Source: Actinotalea sp. C106
Lineage (GTDB): Bacteria > Actinomycetota > Actinomycetes > Actinomycetales > Cellulomonadaceae
Length of the DNA: 32,033 bases
Assembly (NCBI RefSeq): GCF_023630195.1
Contig: NZ_JALPKN010000006.1
Location: 1 to 32,033 of the forward strand
Reading direction: 5' to 3'
Of this stretch, positions 5,907-15,288 are shown one piece after another (the first letter of the stretch is position 1; every line of letters begins with the position of its first letter). The notes under the pieces are model-generated. The model searched no databases. It saw only the letters and a program-made list of their open reading frames with translations, and was not told the origin of the DNA. The position numbers and the translations under genes were made by a program.

Positions 5907-7178
5907 TCAGCGCAGCAGACCCGGGTCCTCCGGGGAGAGCATCTCCAGGATGCGGTTGAGGTCCTGGACCGACGCGAACTCCACGGTCATGCGGCCCTTG
6001 CTCTTGCCCAGCGCGATCTTGACGCGGGTGTCGAACCTGTCGGAGAGGCGACCGGCAAGGTCGTCGAGGGCCGCGTTCCGGTCCCCGGCGCGCGGGCGGC
6101 GCTGGGCGACGGGCTTCTCGGGGTCGCCGCCCAGGGTCACGATCTCCTCGGTGGCGCGGACGGAGATGCCCTCGGCCACGATCCGCTGCGCGAGCCGCTC
6201 CATGGCGGCCGCGTCGGCGAGGCCGAGCAGGGCGCGAGCATGACCCGCGGAGAGCACACCGGCAGCCACCCGGCGCTGCACCAGGGGCGGGAGCCGGAGC
6301 AGTCGCAAGGTGTTGCTGATCTGCGGGCGTGACCGGTGGATGCGGCGCGCGAGGTCGTCGTGGGTGCAGCCGAAGTCGTCGAGCAGCTGCTGGTAGGCAG
6401 CCGCCTCCTCGAGGGGGTTCAGCTGGCTGCGGTGGAGGTTCTCCAGCAGGGCGTCGCGCAGCAGGTCGGCGTCGTCGGTCTCCCGGACGATCGCCGGCAC
6501 CGTCTCCAGGCCGGCCTCCTGCGTGGCGCGCCACCGGCGCTCGCCCATGATGAGCTCGTAGGTGAAGCCGTCGTGCTCGGCCCCCTCCTCACGCAGGGGA
6601 CGCACGACGATGGGCTGGAGCACCCCGATCTCACGGATCGAGCTGACCAGCTCGCTCAGGGCGTCCTCGTCGAAGACCGTGCGCGGCTGGCGCGGGTTCG
6701 GCCGGATCGACCCGACCGGGACCTCCGCGAAGTGCACCCCCGGGACGGGGACCAGACCCTCGGGAAGCTCTCCTGCTGAGCTGGTGCCCGGTCCAGAGCC
6801 GGTCGACGATGTAGAACCGTCCTCGGTGGGCGTCGGGGTGGTCGGTCCGCCAGCGGGAGACACGTCCGCAGAGCTAGCGGTCGGAGAGGTGCCGGGTGAT
6901 GCTCCGGCGCCCGCCTCGTCGTCGCGTGACGGCGCAGCCGCCAGGTCCTCCGGTGCCGCGTCGGCAGCAGCCGTCGCCACATCCCCCGGCAGATCCGTCG
7001 CGGAAAGGTCGTGACCTGCGGCGATGTCCTGCGAGGGGGAAGGCTCGGTGTCCTCGGGGGTCACCTTGGCCGCCGGGCCCCCCGGGAAGAACACGTCGAC
7101 GGGTCGAGCATCTCCCGTCGGCGCGCTGGGGATGAGAGCTCCGAGTCCGCGGCCCAGGCCGCGACGCTTCTCCGCCAT
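5907..7178 (-). CDS. parB: Chromosome-partitioning protein ParB
   Basis: CTP-dependent sliding clamp that loads at parS near the origin and recruits SMC. The N-terminus [17 protein letters not shown] is the ParA-stimulating basic motif. A long Ala/Pro/Ser/Thr-rich linker follows (about residues 18-140), then the CTP-binding domain with PNPRQPR and [21 protein letters not shown], the helix-turn-helix for parS recognition ([22 protein letters not shown]) and the C-terminal dimerisation domain. At 423 residues it is longer than typical because of the linker. Its ATG shares one base with the parA stop (TGATG), so the pair is coupled. Confidence 0.97.
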
Positions 7179-8254
7179 CAGTTGTCCTCCGTCGTCGTGC
7201 TCTGCTGCAGGGGGGCGTTCTCGGGCTGGGCACCCTGGGACTCGACGCCGTCGCGGGACGAGGCCGCAGCGAGGACACCTCTGTCGGCGAGCTCCCGCGC
7301 CGCCGCCAGGTAGGACAACGCTCCGGTCGAGCTCGGGTCGTAGGTCATGACGGTCTGGGCGTAGCTAGGTGCCTCCGAGATCCGCACCGAGCGCGGCACC
7401 GTGGTGCGCAGGGTCTGCTCAGGGAAGTGCTCGCGCACCTCTGCGGCCACCTGCTGCGCAAGATTGGTGCGCGAGTCGTACATGGTGAGCAGGATGGTGG
7501 AGACGTGGAGGGCCGGATTGAGGTGGTTCTTGATGAGCTGGACGTTCTTGAGGAGCTGGCTCAGCCCCTCCAGGGCGTAGTACTCGCACTGGATCGGAAT
7601 CAGCACCTCCCGGGCCGCGACAAAGGCGTTGACCGTCAGGAGCCCGAGGCTCGGCGGGCAGTCGATGAAGATGTAGTCGAGCTGGTCGAGGCCCTGGTGT
7701 GCGCGGTGCTCGAGGTAGGCGTCGATCGCGTTGCGCAGCCGGTTCTCCCGGGCGACCAGAGAGACGAGCTCGATCTCGGCGCCAGAGAGGTCGATCGTGG
7801 CCGGGGCGCACCACAGGCGCGGAAGCTGAGGGGTCTGCTGGACGACGGCAGCGAGCTCCTCGTCCTCCACCAGGACCTCGTAGACCGACGGAGTTCCCGC
7901 CCGGTGGTCGATACCCAGGGCGGTCGAGGCGTTGCCCTGAGGGTCGTTGTCGATGACCAGGACGTTCAGGCCAGCCTGCGAGAGCGCCGCGGCGAGGTTG
8001 ACCGTGGTGGTCGTCTTGCCGACGCCGCCCTTCTGATTGGCGATCGTCAGTACCCGCGTCGACTCAGGGCGCGGGAACCGCCGACCTGAGAGGTCGATCC
8101 GACGTCGGGCATCAGCGGCCAGCTGAGCCGCGAGCGGGGTCGAGTCATCCACGGTCGGCAGGCTCTGGATCAGGGCCGCCCGTCGGTGCTCGTCGTTCCA
8201 GCCCTCTGTTTCACGTGAAACGCCGGGGCCAGGCGTCGGGTCCTGCTGCTCCAC
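7178..8254 (-). CDS. parA: Chromosome-partitioning ATPase ParA (Soj)
   Basis: Deviant Walker-A ATPase that positions ParB-bound origins on the nucleoid. The motif [10 protein letters not shown] lies at residues 75-84, [10 protein letters not shown] follows, Walker B is [18 protein letters not shown], and the 358-residue length fits the family with a short N-terminal extension. I choose GTG at 8254 because AGGAG lies 5 bases upstream; an ATG at 8290 in the same frame lacks such a site, and the frame stays open still further up without homology. A parS site is embedded in codons 12-16. Downstream it is coupled to parB. Confidence 0.96.
8207..8222. promoter_or_regulatory. parS site inside the start of parA
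   Basis: TGTTTCACGTGAAACG differs from the parS consensus TGTTTCACGTGAAACA at one end base, and its 14-base core is fully palindromic. It lies within parA, 32-47 bases after the first base of the start codon. Confidence 0.93.
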
Positions 8255-8441
8255 CAGATCTCCTGTCCTTGCGTGGTCACATCCTGCCATCGTCCAGCGA
8301 CATCGCCGACCGTCGGGGCCCGCAGGGCCCGCCCGTGGCGATGCGTGCTCCCGTCGGCCTCGGTCATGCGCCGCGGCGGTCGACGACGCGGTGAGAGTCA
8401 CGCCTCGCGACCCTCCTCGACCGAGGAGAGCCGACGCCAGC

Positions 8442-9245
8442 TCAGGCGCCCGCTCCCCCGCGTTTCCCTCGCCGGGGAGAGCGTCCTCCCGGGATCCTCC
8501 GTGGCGAATGTCCGCTGCCTGGTGCGCTGGGACCCGTGGGTCGGCTCGATGAGCCTGCTCCACGGGTGGGCTCCGGGCGTAGAGGGACAGAGGGAGCGGT
8601 CCTGCGCACCCGCACCACCGTCGTGGGCTCCCCTCCCGGGACGGTCTCCGCGTCGAGGACGTCCCCGGCGTCGCCGCCGAGGTCTGCGATGGACATCCGC
8701 GCGGCGGCGAGCTCTTCGGCCGCACGTGAACCCTTGAGGGCGAGCAGCACGCCACCGTGCCTGAGGAGCGGGATCGTCCACGCAGCCAGGCGGTCCATCG
8801 GAGCGACCGCTCGGGCCGTCACGGCATCGGCCAGGACCGAACCAACGAGGTCCTCGGCCCTGCCCCGCGTCACTCGCGTGTTCGGGAGCTCGAGTCGCTC
8901 GATCACCTCGGTGAGCCAGGTGACCCGGCGTTGCATCGGCTCGAGCAGGACCACCTCGAGGTCGGGCCGCATGGCCGCAAGGACGACTCCTGGGAGCCCT
9001 GCACCGCTCCCGACGTCGATCACGACACCCTCGGCCGGCAGGAACCTCGCCACCGCGGCAGAGTTGACCAGGTGGCGTTCCCACAGACGAGGAACCTCGC
9101 GCGGGCCGATCAGCCCCCGCGTCACGCCTTCGACCGCGAGCAGGTCATGGAAGGCGACGATCTGCCCGAGGGCCGGACCGAACAGCTCCACGACGGCTGG
9201 GGTCCGCTGGTCGAGCGTCACCGCCCGGCCATCCTCGTCAGCCAC
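8442..9245 (-). CDS. rsmG: 16S rRNA (guanine-527-N7)-methyltransferase RsmG
   Basis: SAM-dependent enzyme (formerly GidB) that methylates G527 of 16S rRNA. The SAM-binding loop is VIDVGSGAGLPGVVLA, followed by LLEPMQRRVTWLTEV, the conserved ARAVAPMDRL and LALKGSRAAEEL. I choose GTG at 9245, preceded by AGGGAG with 4 bases between; the frame stays open further upstream but without homology. The 267-residue product is longer than usual because a Pro/Ser/Gly/Arg-rich tail of about 45 residues follows the catalytic core. It is the first gene of an rsmG-parA-parB series, with a 187-bp gap before parA. Confidence 0.93.
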   Translation of the reverse strand: MADEDGRAVTLDQRTPAVVELFGPALGQIVAFHDLLAVEGVTRGLIGPREVPRLWERHLVNSAAVARFLPAEGVVIDVGSGAGLPGVVLAAMRPDLEVVLLEPMQRRVTWLTEVIERLELPNTRVTRGRAEDLVGSVLADAVTARAVAPMDRLAAWTIPLLRHGGVLLALKGSRAAEELAAARMSIADLGGDAGDVLDAETVPGGEPTTVVRVRRTAPSVPLRPEPTRGAGSSSRPTGPSAPGSGHSPRRIPGGRSPRRGKRGGAGA

Positions 9246-9299
9246 GACGCTCCCTACGGTTGATCGGCACGAACAAGGGACCACCGTATGGGGCCAAGC

Positions 9300-9315
9300 C
9301 GTTCCACGTGAAACC
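9300..9315 (+). promoter_or_regulatory. parS site, asymmetric variant
   Basis: CGTTCCACGTGAAACC: the right half-site is consensus and the left half-site reads TTCC instead of TTTC. The identical 16-mer recurs at 10263. Confidence 0.85.
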
Positions 9316-9442
9316 AGGCGACCGTCTGCCATGGGGTGCGGCGCCCTGGCCAGCCCGCCGGATCTCCCCCGCCGCTCACCTTCGGAGGCACGGCCGCCAC
9401 ACGCACGTCGCTCGTAGTCACTCGCATCGCGTGAGGCAGTCC

Positions 9443-9458
9443 CGTTTCACGTGGAACA
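9443..9458 (-). promoter_or_regulatory. parS site, asymmetric variant in reverse orientation
   Basis: CGTTTCACGTGGAACA: its 14-base core is the exact reverse complement of the core GTTCCACGTGAAAC found at the other three sites of this gap. Confidence 0.87.
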
Positions 9459-10065
9459 TCGCTCCCTTCGACCCGTCAACGTCCGCCTTGCGGACGGCCC
9501 CTCTCTGCCGGCCCGTGCGACCAACGCCCTGGAGCCGAAAGGCGGTACTCGGAATGGGCCTCTGGGTCGCCGCCTCAGATCCGAGCTACGAGGAGGTACG
9601 ACCCACCTGCACGCGTCCACCCACATCCTTGGGTTGCGGCCACCACGACGCACCCTGCCCCTTTAGCCTGGTCTGCAACGCTGAACCGTCGCGCCAAGCA
9701 CACGCACGCGACACCGTGCCCCTCGGAGGCCCGCCGATCCGCATGTCCCGCACCGAGGCCCCCTGGGCCCGCGCACCCCCGCCGGTCTGTGTGCATCGTT
9801 GAGTCACCCGTCTCACGGTGGACAGTGCGGAGGCCAGGCCATGCCCTGGTCACGGTCACCACCCATGGACCGAGCTCGTGGGTATCAAGCACAACCCTGC
9901 GCACCTGATCCACGTGGGTGAACCGACGGGCGACCACGGACGGGCAGCCACTCCCCTGCCGCGCGCCAGCCGTGCGCCAGCGACTCCATCCGCGCGCAAG
10001 AACGGGCGCCGAGCGCCAGCCGTCGCGCCACCAACTGCAACGGGGCCAACGCTGCACTACGGCGG

Positions 10066-10081
10066 TGTTCCACGTGAAACA
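10066..10081 (+). promoter_or_regulatory. parS site, asymmetric variant
   Basis: TGTTCCACGTGAAACA: one mismatch to the 16-base consensus, at the same position of the left half-site as the sites at 9300 and 10263. Confidence 0.92.
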
Positions 10082-10262
10082 CGTCTGACCCCGGGAGGCT
10101 CCGCAGCACGAGGAGGCCGTCGTCCCTGACACGTAGGCCATGTCCTTGTCCCGATGAGGGGCGGTCCACTTCCACGACGCCGGCGCTGTCAGCATCAGCA
10201 TCGGCGTGAACGGCCGCCGCCGAGCATCACCGGGCGAGGTAGTGGTGACGAACCTCGCAACA

Positions 10263-10278
10263 CGTTCCACGTGAAACC
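10263..10278 (+). promoter_or_regulatory. parS site, asymmetric variant
   Basis: CGTTCCACGTGAAACC, identical to the site at 9300. It lies about 100 bp beyond the terminator of the khpB operon. Confidence 0.86.
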
Positions 10279-10375
10279 GAGCCAGAATGAGCATCCCGGG
10301 GATGCGCTCCCGTGACTCCACCCCTGCCCTACGGCCACTTCCGCGGCGAACCAGCCGCGCACTCCCCGAGACACG

Positions 10376-10413
10376 GAGAGGCCCCCGCGACCGCATGGTC
10401 ACGGGGGCCTCTC
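10376..10413 (-). terminator. Strong hairpin terminator after khpB
   Basis: A 17-bp stem with one mismatch and a GCAT tetraloop (arms 10376-10392 and 10397-10413) starts 11 bases beyond the khpB stop codon. It likely ends the rpmH-rnpA-yidD-yidC-khpB transcript. Confidence 0.85.
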
Positions 10414-10423
10414 CCTGCCGCGT

Positions 10424-10939
10424 TCAGGCGGGCTTGATCACCACGTGTCGACCAGGCTCAACGCCATCGCTATCGCTGACCAGCCCGGATTCCGCGACCA
10501 CGTCATGCACCACCTTGCGCTCGAAGGGGTTCATGGGCTCGAGGGCCACCGACTCGCCCGAGGCCTGGACCTCCCCGATCGCCTTCTTCGCGACCTCGGT
10601 CAGCTCGGCCCTGCGAGCGGCACGATAGCCGGCGATGTCGAGCATCAAGCGGCTCCGCTCCCCCGTCTTGGTCTGCACGGCAAGGCGCGTGAGCTCCTGG
10701 ACCGCATCGAGGACCTCGCCTTCGGAACCGACGAGTCGACGCAGGGCCCGCTCGGAACCGGCCTCTGCCACGATCTCCACCGCGGCGCGTCCGTGATCGA
10801 CGTCGATGTCGATGTCACCATCCAGGTCGGCGATGTCCAACAGCTCTTCGAGGTAGTCCGCGGCGATCTCACCCTCCTCCTCGAGGCGTCGCGTGACGGA
10901 CACGTCGTTCTGCTCCGTGGGAGCACTGCTCTCGGTCAT
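10424..10939 (-). CDS. khpB: KhpB/Jag RNA-binding protein (KH and R3H domains)
   Basis: 171-residue RNA-binding protein. After an acidic N-terminus comes a KH-like domain (VDHGRAAVEIVAEAG ... LVGSEGEVLDAVQELTRLAV) and a C-terminal R3H domain (MNPFERKVVHDVVAE ... GVEPGRHVVI). The Jag-N domain found in Firmicutes is missing, as is usual in actinobacteria. The start is ATG 10939 with AGGAG 6 bases upstream. It lies 40 bp after yidC in the conserved yidC-khpB order. Family members bind RNA and affect cell-wall growth and division; the role here is inferred. Confidence 0.93.
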   Translation of the reverse strand: MTESSAPTEQNDVSVTRRLEEEGEIAADYLEELLDIADLDGDIDIDVDHGRAAVEIVAEAGSERALRRLVGSEGEVLDAVQELTRLAVQTKTGERSRLMLDIAGYRAARRAELTEVAKKAIGEVQASGESVALEPMNPFERKVVHDVVAESGLVSDSDGVEPGRHVVIKPA

Positions 10940-13194: not shown

Positions 13195-13686
13195 GTCAGA
13201 CTCCACAAAGGTTGGTTCAGGTCGCCGTCGGAGGACGGACACGAGGGTGCGCTCGTCGCCCTCCGCCCGTGGATCATGCCCCGCATGCGATCACGACGAC
13301 CGCATCACGGTGTCGTGGCCGGCTGTGGGCACGCAGACTGAGGCCGTCACGAACGGCTGTGCAACGGTACGCGCGACCAGCGCGCCGGTCAAACCTGTGG
13401 CCGGGTACTGACGCGCGGGGTGTCTGCTCTCGATCAACGCCGATCATGCTCCGGGACCCGTTCGACCACGCCCGCGACACTCCGAGGGCCACCGCAGACC
13501 TGCACCGCACGTCTGCGAGGGGCCTTCCGTGCCAGATCGAGCAGGCCTCCCAGGCCCTTCACCCACAGCCGCCGCATCTGGTATCACGCGAGCCCACAGC
13601 TTGTGGACAACTATGTGGATCGTGCCGCACCATGCCAGGGTGCGAGGCGGATCCCCGCCCGCAGCGCAGACCTATGGAGCTCCCCC
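13195..13686. other. rpmH-dnaA divergent intergenic region
   Basis: 492 bp without a supported gene. It must hold the divergent rpmH and dnaA promoters, but I see no hexamer pair good enough to call. Near the dnaA side is a consensus DnaA box (13602-13610) and a weaker one (13614-13622). GGAG at 13676-13679 is the dnaA ribosome-binding site. Confidence 0.6.
13602..13622. promoter_or_regulatory. DnaA boxes upstream of dnaA
   Basis: TGTGGACAA (13602-13610) is an exact reverse-complement match to the actinobacterial box TTGTCCACA. TGTGGATCG (13614-13622) is a weaker neighbour in the same orientation. At 65-85 bp before the start codon they are placed for dnaA autoregulation. Confidence 0.75.
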
Positions 13687-15288
13687 GTGCCAGCACAGGA
13701 CGTCTCGATCGCCCAGGTGTGGGACCGAGCAGTAGGACAGATCGCCACCGATCCCACGACCAGCGCGCAGCAGCTGGCCTTCATCCGGCTGGTCCGACCT
13801 GTCGGTCTCCTGGACGACACCGTCCTCCTTGCCGTCGGCAACGACTTCACCAAGGACTACCTCGAGTCCAGGGTGCGCAACGAGCTGACCAAGGCACTGA
13901 GCGACGTCCTCGGCGTCGACGCCAGGTTCGCGGTAACCGTCGACCCCTCCCTCGAGGACGCCGACAGCCGCGCCCCGTCCGCCCAGAACGCCTCGACCCA
14001 GGGCGGTCCTCGCGATGCAGAGCCTGGTTCCGGAGACCGCTCCGACCGTGAGGGCTCTCGCCGCCGCCACGACGACCGGGACCACCGCGACAGCCGCGAT
14101 GACCACGACCGTGATCTTGACCGACGATCACGCCGCGACAGCGCCTTCGACGACGACGAGGAGGACCGCCCCCGGCGTCGTTCCTCTGCCGAGCGCACCC
14201 CCTTCGACGAGGCCCCCCACGGGCGGTCCTCGGGGCAGCGTCCACCGGTCGAGCCGGCTCGCCTCAACCCGAAGTACCTCTTCGAGACCTTCGTCATCGG
14301 GTCCTCCAACCGCTTCGCGCACGCCGCAGCCGTCGCCGTGGCCGAGGCCCCCGCCAAGGCGTACAACCCGCTGTTCATCTACGGGGACTCGGGTCTGGGC
14401 AAGACGCACCTGCTGCACGCGATCGGTCACTACGCCTTCTCGCTGTACCCGGGGGTCCGGGTGCGCTACGTGAACTCCGAGGAGTTCACCAACGACTTCA
14501 TCAACTCGATCAGCGAGGGCAAGGCGGGCGCATTCCAGCGCCGGTACCGAGACGTCGACCTGCTCCTCATCGACGACATCCAGTTCCTGCAGGGCAAGGA
14601 GCAGACGATGGAGGAGTTCTTCCACACCTTCAACACCCTGCACAACACCAACAAGCAGGTCGTGATCACCTCCGACCTGCCGCCCAAGCAGCTCAACGGC
14701 TTCGAGGACCGCATGAGGTCGCGCTTCGAGTGGGGCCTCATCACCGACGTGCAGCCTCCTGACCTCGAGACGCGGATCGCCATCCTGCGCAAGAAGGCCG
14801 GCAACGAGCGGCTCCAGGCCCCCGACGACGTCCTCGAGTACATCGCCTCCAAGATCTCTACGAACATCCGTGAGCTCGAGGGCGCGCTCATCCGGGTGAC
14901 GGCGTTCGCCAACCTCAACCGACAGCACGTGGACCTCGCCCTGGCCGAGATCGTCCTCAAGGACCTCATCACCGACGAGGACACTGCCGAGATCACCGCG
15001 GCCGCGATCATCGCCCAGACGGCCAACTACTTCGGCCTGACGATCGACGACCTCTGCGGGTCCTCACGGTCCCGAGTCCTAGTCACCGGACGGCAGATCG
15101 CGATGTACCTGTGCCGCGAGCTGACCGACATGAGCCTGCCGAAGATCGGTCAGCAGTTCGGCGGCCGGGACCACACCACGGTGATGCACGCGAACCGCAA
15201 GATCCGCGAGCTCATGGCCGAACGTCGCTCGATCTACAACCAGGTGACCGAGCTCACGAACCGGATCAAGCAGCAGCATCGTGGGTAG
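13687..15288 (+). CDS. dnaA: Chromosomal replication initiator protein DnaA
   Basis: AAA+ initiator that binds oriC and melts it. Domain I covers about residues 1-88. Domain II (about 89-190) is an unusually charged linker with DDRDHRDSRDDHDRD-like runs. Domain III has Walker A GDSGLGKT (233-240) and Walker B LLLIDD (292-297). Domain IV, which reads DnaA boxes, contains SLPKIGQQFGGRDHTTVMHA. The protein is 533 residues. The start is GTG 13687, with GGAG 7 bases upstream; the frame is open upstream but lacks homology. A DnaA box lies before the gene and oriC follows it. Confidence 0.98.
   Translation: MPAQDVSIAQVWDRAVGQIATDPTTSAQQLAFIRLVRPVGLLDDTVLLAVGNDFTKDYLESRVRNELTKALSDVLGVDARFAVTVDPSLEDADSRAPSAQNASTQGGPRDAEPGSGDRSDREGSRRRHDDRDHRDSRDDHDRDLDRRSRRDSAFDDDEEDRPRRRSSAERTPFDEAPHGRSSGQRPPVEPARLNPKYLFETFVIGSSNRFAHAAAVAVAEAPAKAYNPLFIYGDSGLGKTHLLHAIGHYAFSLYPGVRVRYVNSEEFTNDFINSISEGKAGAFQRRYRDVDLLLIDDIQFLQGKEQTMEEFFHTFNTLHNTNKQVVITSDLPPKQLNGFEDRMRSRFEWGLITDVQPPDLETRIAILRKKAGNERLQAPDDVLEYIASKISTNIRELEGALIRVTAFANLNRQHVDLALAEIVLKDLITDEDTAEITAAAIIAQTANYFGLTIDDLCGSSRSRVLVTGRQIAMYLCRELTDMSLPKIGQQFGGRDHTTVMHANRKIRELMAERRSIYNQVTELTNRIKQQHRG

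Follow-up and report, generated by a model that had tools for sequence, protein, structure and literature searches.

The window analysed here is a stretch of 32,033 nucleotides from Actinotalea sp. C106, which corresponds to contig C628 of an assembly with 3,618,467 bases in 661 contigs. Its genes follow the order trxB, aminotransferase, ddl, parB, parA, rsmG, a gap of about 1.2 kb, jag, yidC, yidD, rnpA, dnaA and dnaN. Their names come from Pfam matches, with the exception of trxB and the aminotransferase, which are named from their translations. On the minus strand we find parB (5907–7178), with the ParB N-terminal, HTH and dimerisation domains (PF02195, PF17762, PF23552), and parA (7178–8290; PF13614 and translation). 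The start of parA is uncertain: it may be ATG 8290 or GTG 8254, in a frame which is open to 8755. The same strand contains rsmG, which codes for 16S rRNA methyltransferase G (8442–9245; PF02527) and also has an uncertain start, in a frame open to 9332, and jag, with an R3H domain (10,424–10,939; PF01424) and a start read near 10,939. The dnaA open frame (13,420–15,288, plus strand; PF00308, PF08299) lies on the origin side of the cluster.

Five parS sites are found in this region, at the places given in the earlier note, and their exact cores have been confirmed. We will describe them by the variable letter in their two halves: TT, CT, TC or CC; both CT and TC are called one-C sites. The site at 8207–8222, TGTTTCACGTGAAACG, has a symmetric TT core and lies within the parA leader, where it encodes V-S-R-E-T on the minus strand, in frame with parA and free of stops. 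The other four are asymmetric. Three have the CT core GTTCCACGTGAAAC on the plus strand, at 9300–9315, 10,066–10,081 (TGTTCCACGTGAAACA) and 10,263–10,278; the first and the last are identical 16-mers, CGTTCCACGTGAAACC, as had been noticed before. The fourth, at 9443–9458 (CGTTTCACGTGGAACA, minus strand), has the opposite orientation, TC, with the reverse-complement core. All four lie in the gap between rsmG and jag (9246–10,423), provided that the start of rsmG is near 9245; with the in-frame ATG at 9332 as start, the site at 9300 would fall inside that frame. The five cores match GTTYCACGTGRAAC exactly, while the outer letters differ among sites. With up to three mismatches the pattern TGTTNCACGTGNAACA is found 5 times in the window, against a mean of 0.37 and a maximum of 2 in 100 shuffles, so the sites themselves are not due to chance.

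The earlier note had proposed a scan of the whole genome for parS variants. No exact core is found in the 661 contigs of the assembly beyond the five in the window, all of them near oriC: they span at most 2.1 kb and lie 3.1–5.2 kb away from the dnaA open frame. A search for the symmetric core with up to two mismatches gives a single extra match, in contig C266; the reversed control pattern also gives one. Judged from their sequence, these are ordinary parS sites of a standard ParABS centromere and predicted targets of ParB. They have the near-palindromic 16-bp motif of the TGTTNCACGTGAAACA type, they form several copies clustered near oriC, the cognate ParA and ParB are encoded alongside with Pfam scores above cut-off, and relatives keep them: sites are present in 18 of the 19 genomes of the genus.

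The surroundings of the sites have changed a lot. In a forced global alignment the gap has 51% identity with that of the nearest relative, G007 (581 of 1148 aligned letters), while DnaA is 100% identical in the part compared and ParB 98%. All four sites of the gap are retained in G007 as one-C sites; three have the same direction and the fourth, the counterpart of 10,263, is flipped to TC. Whether related genomes keep the asymmetry, a check proposed in the earlier note, receives a split answer: they keep the one-C state but not its direction. Compared with L030, the locus of G007, the region 9213–10,430 is scrambled between two species whose DnaA is identical over the part compared.

Within the source genome alone the asymmetry is not significant. 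Chance would distribute the four C of the ten half-sites over four separate sites with p = 80/210 = 0.38, or p = 16/70 = 0.23 if only the four intergenic sites are considered, and the 3:1 split of orientations is what a coin might give. We have therefore counted the sites in related genomes. In each genome the number of one-C sites is compared with the exact expectation under random pairing of the half-sites of that genome. The regions near oriC come from 118 genomes: the window, 17 relatives of the genus and 100 others. One region (G085) has no exact site, which leaves 117; contig C137 of G003, with one distal CC, is excluded. This sample, chosen among the rsmG matches listed, omits 82 of the 200 genomes of the family, and genus g21 is represented by 2 of 18. 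The restriction to regions near oriC was decided after distal CC sites had been noticed; in Actinotalea both ways of counting lead to the same outcome.

It is only across related genomes that the excess of one-C sites becomes significant. Near oriC the genus Actinotalea (g1) has 107 sites: 21 TT, 76 one-C (71%) and 10 CC, while 52.6 one-C sites are expected (z = 4.75, p = 6.9e-7). Without the sites which lie in parA coding sequence the counts are 17, 67 and 5 (p = 3.4e-9). The halves are thus paired in a non-random way, and the suspicion that independent decay would not give this pattern holds once relatives are counted. In the 117 genomes of the family we find 730 sites: 347 TT, 339 one-C and 44 CC, with 244.9 one-C sites expected (z = 9.55, p = 6e-25). 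The excess withstands thinning of the tree: with genomes separated by more than 0.05, 0.10, 0.15, 0.20 and 0.30 substitutions per site (89, 65, 50, 34 and 18 genomes; non-parA sites) the median p is 4e-20, 2e-14, 4e-11, 3e-8 and 5e-5. Genera have variable features. Genus g20 has a strong excess (126 TT, 199 one-C, 30 CC; p = 3e-20); some of its genomes (G190, G183, G187) are mostly CC near oriC. Genus g6 gives p = 0.009 and g16 p = 0.11. No excess is found near oriC in g7, g8 and g19, and the pairing test is not informative in g9 and g23, where C is too scarce.

Whole-genome counts in the 200 genomes of the family do not have an overall excess (771 TT, 557 one-C, 158 CC; 543.2 one-C expected, z = 0.97), because distal sites dilute it. 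Some genera keep it: Actinotalea has 76 one-C among 108 sites (54.3 expected, z = 4.35), g20 244 among 481 (z = 5.52) and g6 has z = 2.47. Others have a deficit: g21 (z = -7.80), g9 and g23 (-3.93 in both), g3 (-2.85), g7 (-2.65) and g10 (-2.29). In these genera the sites are chiefly TT, plus some CC. All 20 distal CC matches which we have checked (L213–L232) overlap open frames, and they could be coding coincidences rather than additional parS; long open frames are frequent by chance in GC-rich DNA, so the overlap is weak evidence. Several of them are found at corresponding positions in related genomes.

In order to compare genera we have expressed the cost of each C in log units relative to the composition of the noncoding DNA nearby, in which the share of C is close to 0.71, with bootstrap 95% limits and using non-parA sites; the figures assume that this composition represents the neutral expectation. 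In Actinotalea the first C costs 0.21 (-0.56 to 0.83) and the second 2.69 (1.97 to 5.03): one change is close to free, two are not. In g20 the costs are 1.17 (0.71 to 1.60) and 2.05 (1.54 to 2.63). In the TT-rich genera taken together (g7, g9, g21, g23 and g25) they are 3.42 (2.99 to 3.99) and 3.31 (2.81 to 3.65), so that even the first C is expensive there.

We have thus observed an excess of one-C sites, a rarity of two-C sites, a direction which in the genus is near random, and the turnover of the sequence around them. The explanation which we favour, with somewhat better than even confidence, is that the asymmetry results from a GC-driven drift which selection on the site as a unit keeps in check, without leaving the consensus TGTTNCACGTGAAACA of the literature. 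In Actinotalea the T of the half-site GTTTCAC could change to C in one half at almost no cost, while outside parA a second C would meet strong selection. Noncoding DNA favours C over T by about 71:29, and drift would therefore place one C in most sites; which half bears it would be close to random. That a change costs next to nothing in one half but not in both suggests selection on the whole site, and the constraint would be the binding or loading of ParB, with CC presumably a weaker site in Actinotalea. This step on affinity is inferred. CC is not weak everywhere: some g20 genomes are rich in CC, and in Pseudomonas aeruginosa CC is the best-bound site (PMC4368675). The counts provide a measured rule, open to test, on the extent of decay which a bacterial centromere site can undergo in nature: in Actinotalea one half is nearly free, both are not. 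They also warn that an asymmetric parS need not be directional.

The site inside parA departs from this explanation. The symmetric parA-internal site of the window had been considered special, but the 15 such sites found in 14 genomes of Actinotalea comprise 4 TT, 4 CT, 2 TC and 5 CC. The site thus takes all four states, and the leader peptide of ParA changes with it (VSRET, VSRGT, VPRET or VPRGT). CC accounts for 5 of these 15 sites but for only 5 of the other 92 (p = 0.005), an over-representation which the preferred explanation does not predict.

Among the fitted models, a mixture which requires 0, 1 or 2 T halves (AIC 621.2) is better than random pairing (675.2), but free proportions specific for each genome give the best fit (576.8), so a threshold rule is incomplete. 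A strict rule by which one T half is needed finds no support: when one half has another defect, its partner is T in 30 cases and C in 17, compared with a usage of 220:152 (p = 0.64), with no preference for T. These 47 near-sites with one defective half were found in 355,668 bases of the parA–jag regions of the family, while the reversed text gives 0. The defect is at letter two of the half-site in 26 of the 47. In the family, halves with GTTGCAC are opposite T in 2 cases and opposite C in 3. GC content as the sole cause has also been discarded: the Spearman correlation is 0.73, but once contrasts take the phylogeny into account r is only 0.23 (p = 0.012), and genomes differ little in the share of C in their noncoding DNA (0.64 to 0.77). 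Some residues of ParB, among them 281, are correlated with the proportion of C (R2 up to 0.49), but as determinants of the type of site they were set aside: counts of independent pairs, a partial view, gave nothing convincing. A stretch of 13 ParB residues has few differing positions among 12 rows.

Alternatively the sites could be copies of one another, the pairing of halves being free of selection. Duplication had been suggested for this genome, and the identical 16-mers at 9300 and 10,263 are what it would give; the best fit of genome-specific proportions also agrees with it. The flanks do not: in the genome of the window, no pair of non-parA sites has more than 2 bp of identical sequence next to the core, which is not what a recently duplicated repeat leaves, and the identity of flanks within genomes is about the same as between genomes. 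Flanks decay fast, so older copies may be present. In favour of copying, a few genomes, such as G037 and G199, have long identical flanks, and in the family near neighbours agree in direction. A recent case is G271 (L237), in which six one-C sites with identical flanks are repeated in tandem every 28 bp (oriented coordinates 8471–8624). But direct duplication should align the directions of one-C sites, and in Actinotalea, where 71% of the sites are one-C, they are not aligned; duplication does not explain its excess. We consider this reading unlikely.

Even less likely is that one-C sites are actively preferred, with ParB or its clamp loading best on the combination of a strong and a weak half. 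The high proportion of one-C sites in Actinotalea would agree with it, and some genomes, which we have picked after the fact, only have one-C sites among their exact sites near oriC: 9 of 9 in G169 and G184, 7 of 7 in G137, G150, G008 and G013. But in Actinotalea the ratio of TT to one-C sites is that predicted by composition, with an interval for the first C which spans zero, TT is favoured in the TT-rich genera, and when the mixture model is given a free weight on one-C sites it turns out negative (d = -0.75).

The asymmetric site had also been proposed to be directional. In such a reading the weak half would set the side of spreading or loading of ParB or SMC. Actinotalea argues against it. 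Its one-C sites divide into 41 CT and 35 TC (p = 0.57), within genomes 64 of 121 pairs agree in direction, as chance would give (p = 0.27), and, with the flipped site of G007, the orientation relative to the origin is not conserved. In the family (f1) near oriC 192 of 339 one-C sites are CT (p = 0.017); 20 of 25 among those internal to parA have this direction, as coding would produce. Within genomes of f1, 335 of 583 pairs are concordant (p = 0.0008), but the agreement is greatest for neighbouring sites (43 of 60 pairs no more than 150 bp apart), which fits occasional local direct duplication. It weakens with thinning to 68, 41 and 21 genomes (p = 0.003, 0.023 and 0.37) and vanishes in the most widely separated set.

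Base skew has been compared with direction in 98 genomes; in this comparison the array of G271 counts as one, and G246 and G284, which could not be oriented, are out of all orientation tests. Among 357 one-C sites 205 are CT, the direction which skew predicts. As a cause of orientation, strand composition was rejected: the slope per genome has the wrong sign in f1 (-1.34). In family f13 it fits in part (slope 4.67, p = 0.0035), although G243, with 1 CT and 9 TC, contradicts its predicted value of 0.56. Concordance beyond skew persists in both families (p = 0.0044 in f1, 0.0008 in f13).

It is in f13 that a directional role finds most support. In nine genomes 46 of 53 one-C sites follow the direction which predominates in their own genome, compared with a mean of 34.7 under the null (p = 0.0001, ignoring kinship), and 38 of 44 do so without G271. 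Flanks have background identity in four of the five genomes with at least seven one-C sites, G271 being the exception, and also in G258. In genus g48 of this family (L233–L236) the direction is nearly uniform in each genome and opposite between species: mostly CT in G228 (6:1), G297 (7:1) and G310 (6:1), mostly TC in G243 (1:9). These opposite directions speak against a fixed directional function, and in Bacillus subtilis the sequence of the sites was not seen to be related to affinity or direction of spreading, as stated in PMC4368675. Taken over all the data a directional site is quite improbable. The co-orientation in f13 is not fully explained: it could be due to old tandem copying or to a directional role, skew accounting for only a part, so such a role may exist outside the genus of the window. 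A broader view, to which we would give slightly more credit but still little, joins Cellulomonadaceae and f13: the two halves would be read jointly, one imperfect half being free or preferred and two not, and the imperfect half, on the same side in f13, would make the ParB clamp or SMC load asymmetrically from a seemingly palindromic centromere. Pure chance, which would suffice for the single genome of the window, is hardly credible given the excess in genus and family, robust to thinning.

Other families of the order, with 138 genomes, also show a whole-genome excess of one-C sites (458 TT, 203 one-C, 56 CC; 179.1 one-C expected, z = 3.22). In f13 there are 55 among 83 sites (37.2 expected, z = 4.47), while f9 has fewer than expected (z = -3.39) and f8 has 12 sites, CC alone, in 10 genomes. 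Outside the family, 39 actinobacterial loci, from a reading of 55 of 70, have the same core as here, in the symmetric form GTTTCACGTGAAAC, and an adjoining rsmG. They differ in that 108 of their 123 sites are TT; 6 are one-C, 5 are CC and in 4 one of the halves contains G. In these four sites (Brachybacterium and Nocardioides; L182, L184, L185) the G faces a T half.

In the literature the main chromosomal parS consensus, which includes B. subtilis and Corynebacterium glutamicum, is TGTTNCACGTGAAACA, in which just one of the halves contains a free letter (PMC7022226). The sites of the window share its core and the cluster near oriC beside parAB, and the one-C core fits it exactly. They differ in that the free letter is nearly always T or C and may be in either half; here the pairing has been measured across many species. 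The P. aeruginosa site TGTTCCACGTGGAACA shares the motif but has C in each half, and its affinity for ParB is graded by its arms: sites with one intact arm are bound better than those with both arms changed (PMC4368675). That its best-bound site is CC contrasts with Actinotalea, where CC is rare outside parA. The ParB of P. aeruginosa binds both GTTCCAC and GTTTCAC halves (PMC10419367). C. glutamicum has ten redundant parS, described as identical, of which one suffices (PMC7083940), and the DNA-binding domain contacts parS with two-fold symmetry (PMC7383237). Half-sites are not treated in the part available of PMC7053999. Titles and abstracts, with a coverage from which most subscription journals are absent, gave no publication on joint selection of the parS halves.

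A peculiar genome is G133 (family f1, genus g9), which has 27 exact cores (17 TT, 7 one-C and 3 CC), far above its congeners, in an assembly of 1.5 Mb which is 65% complete.
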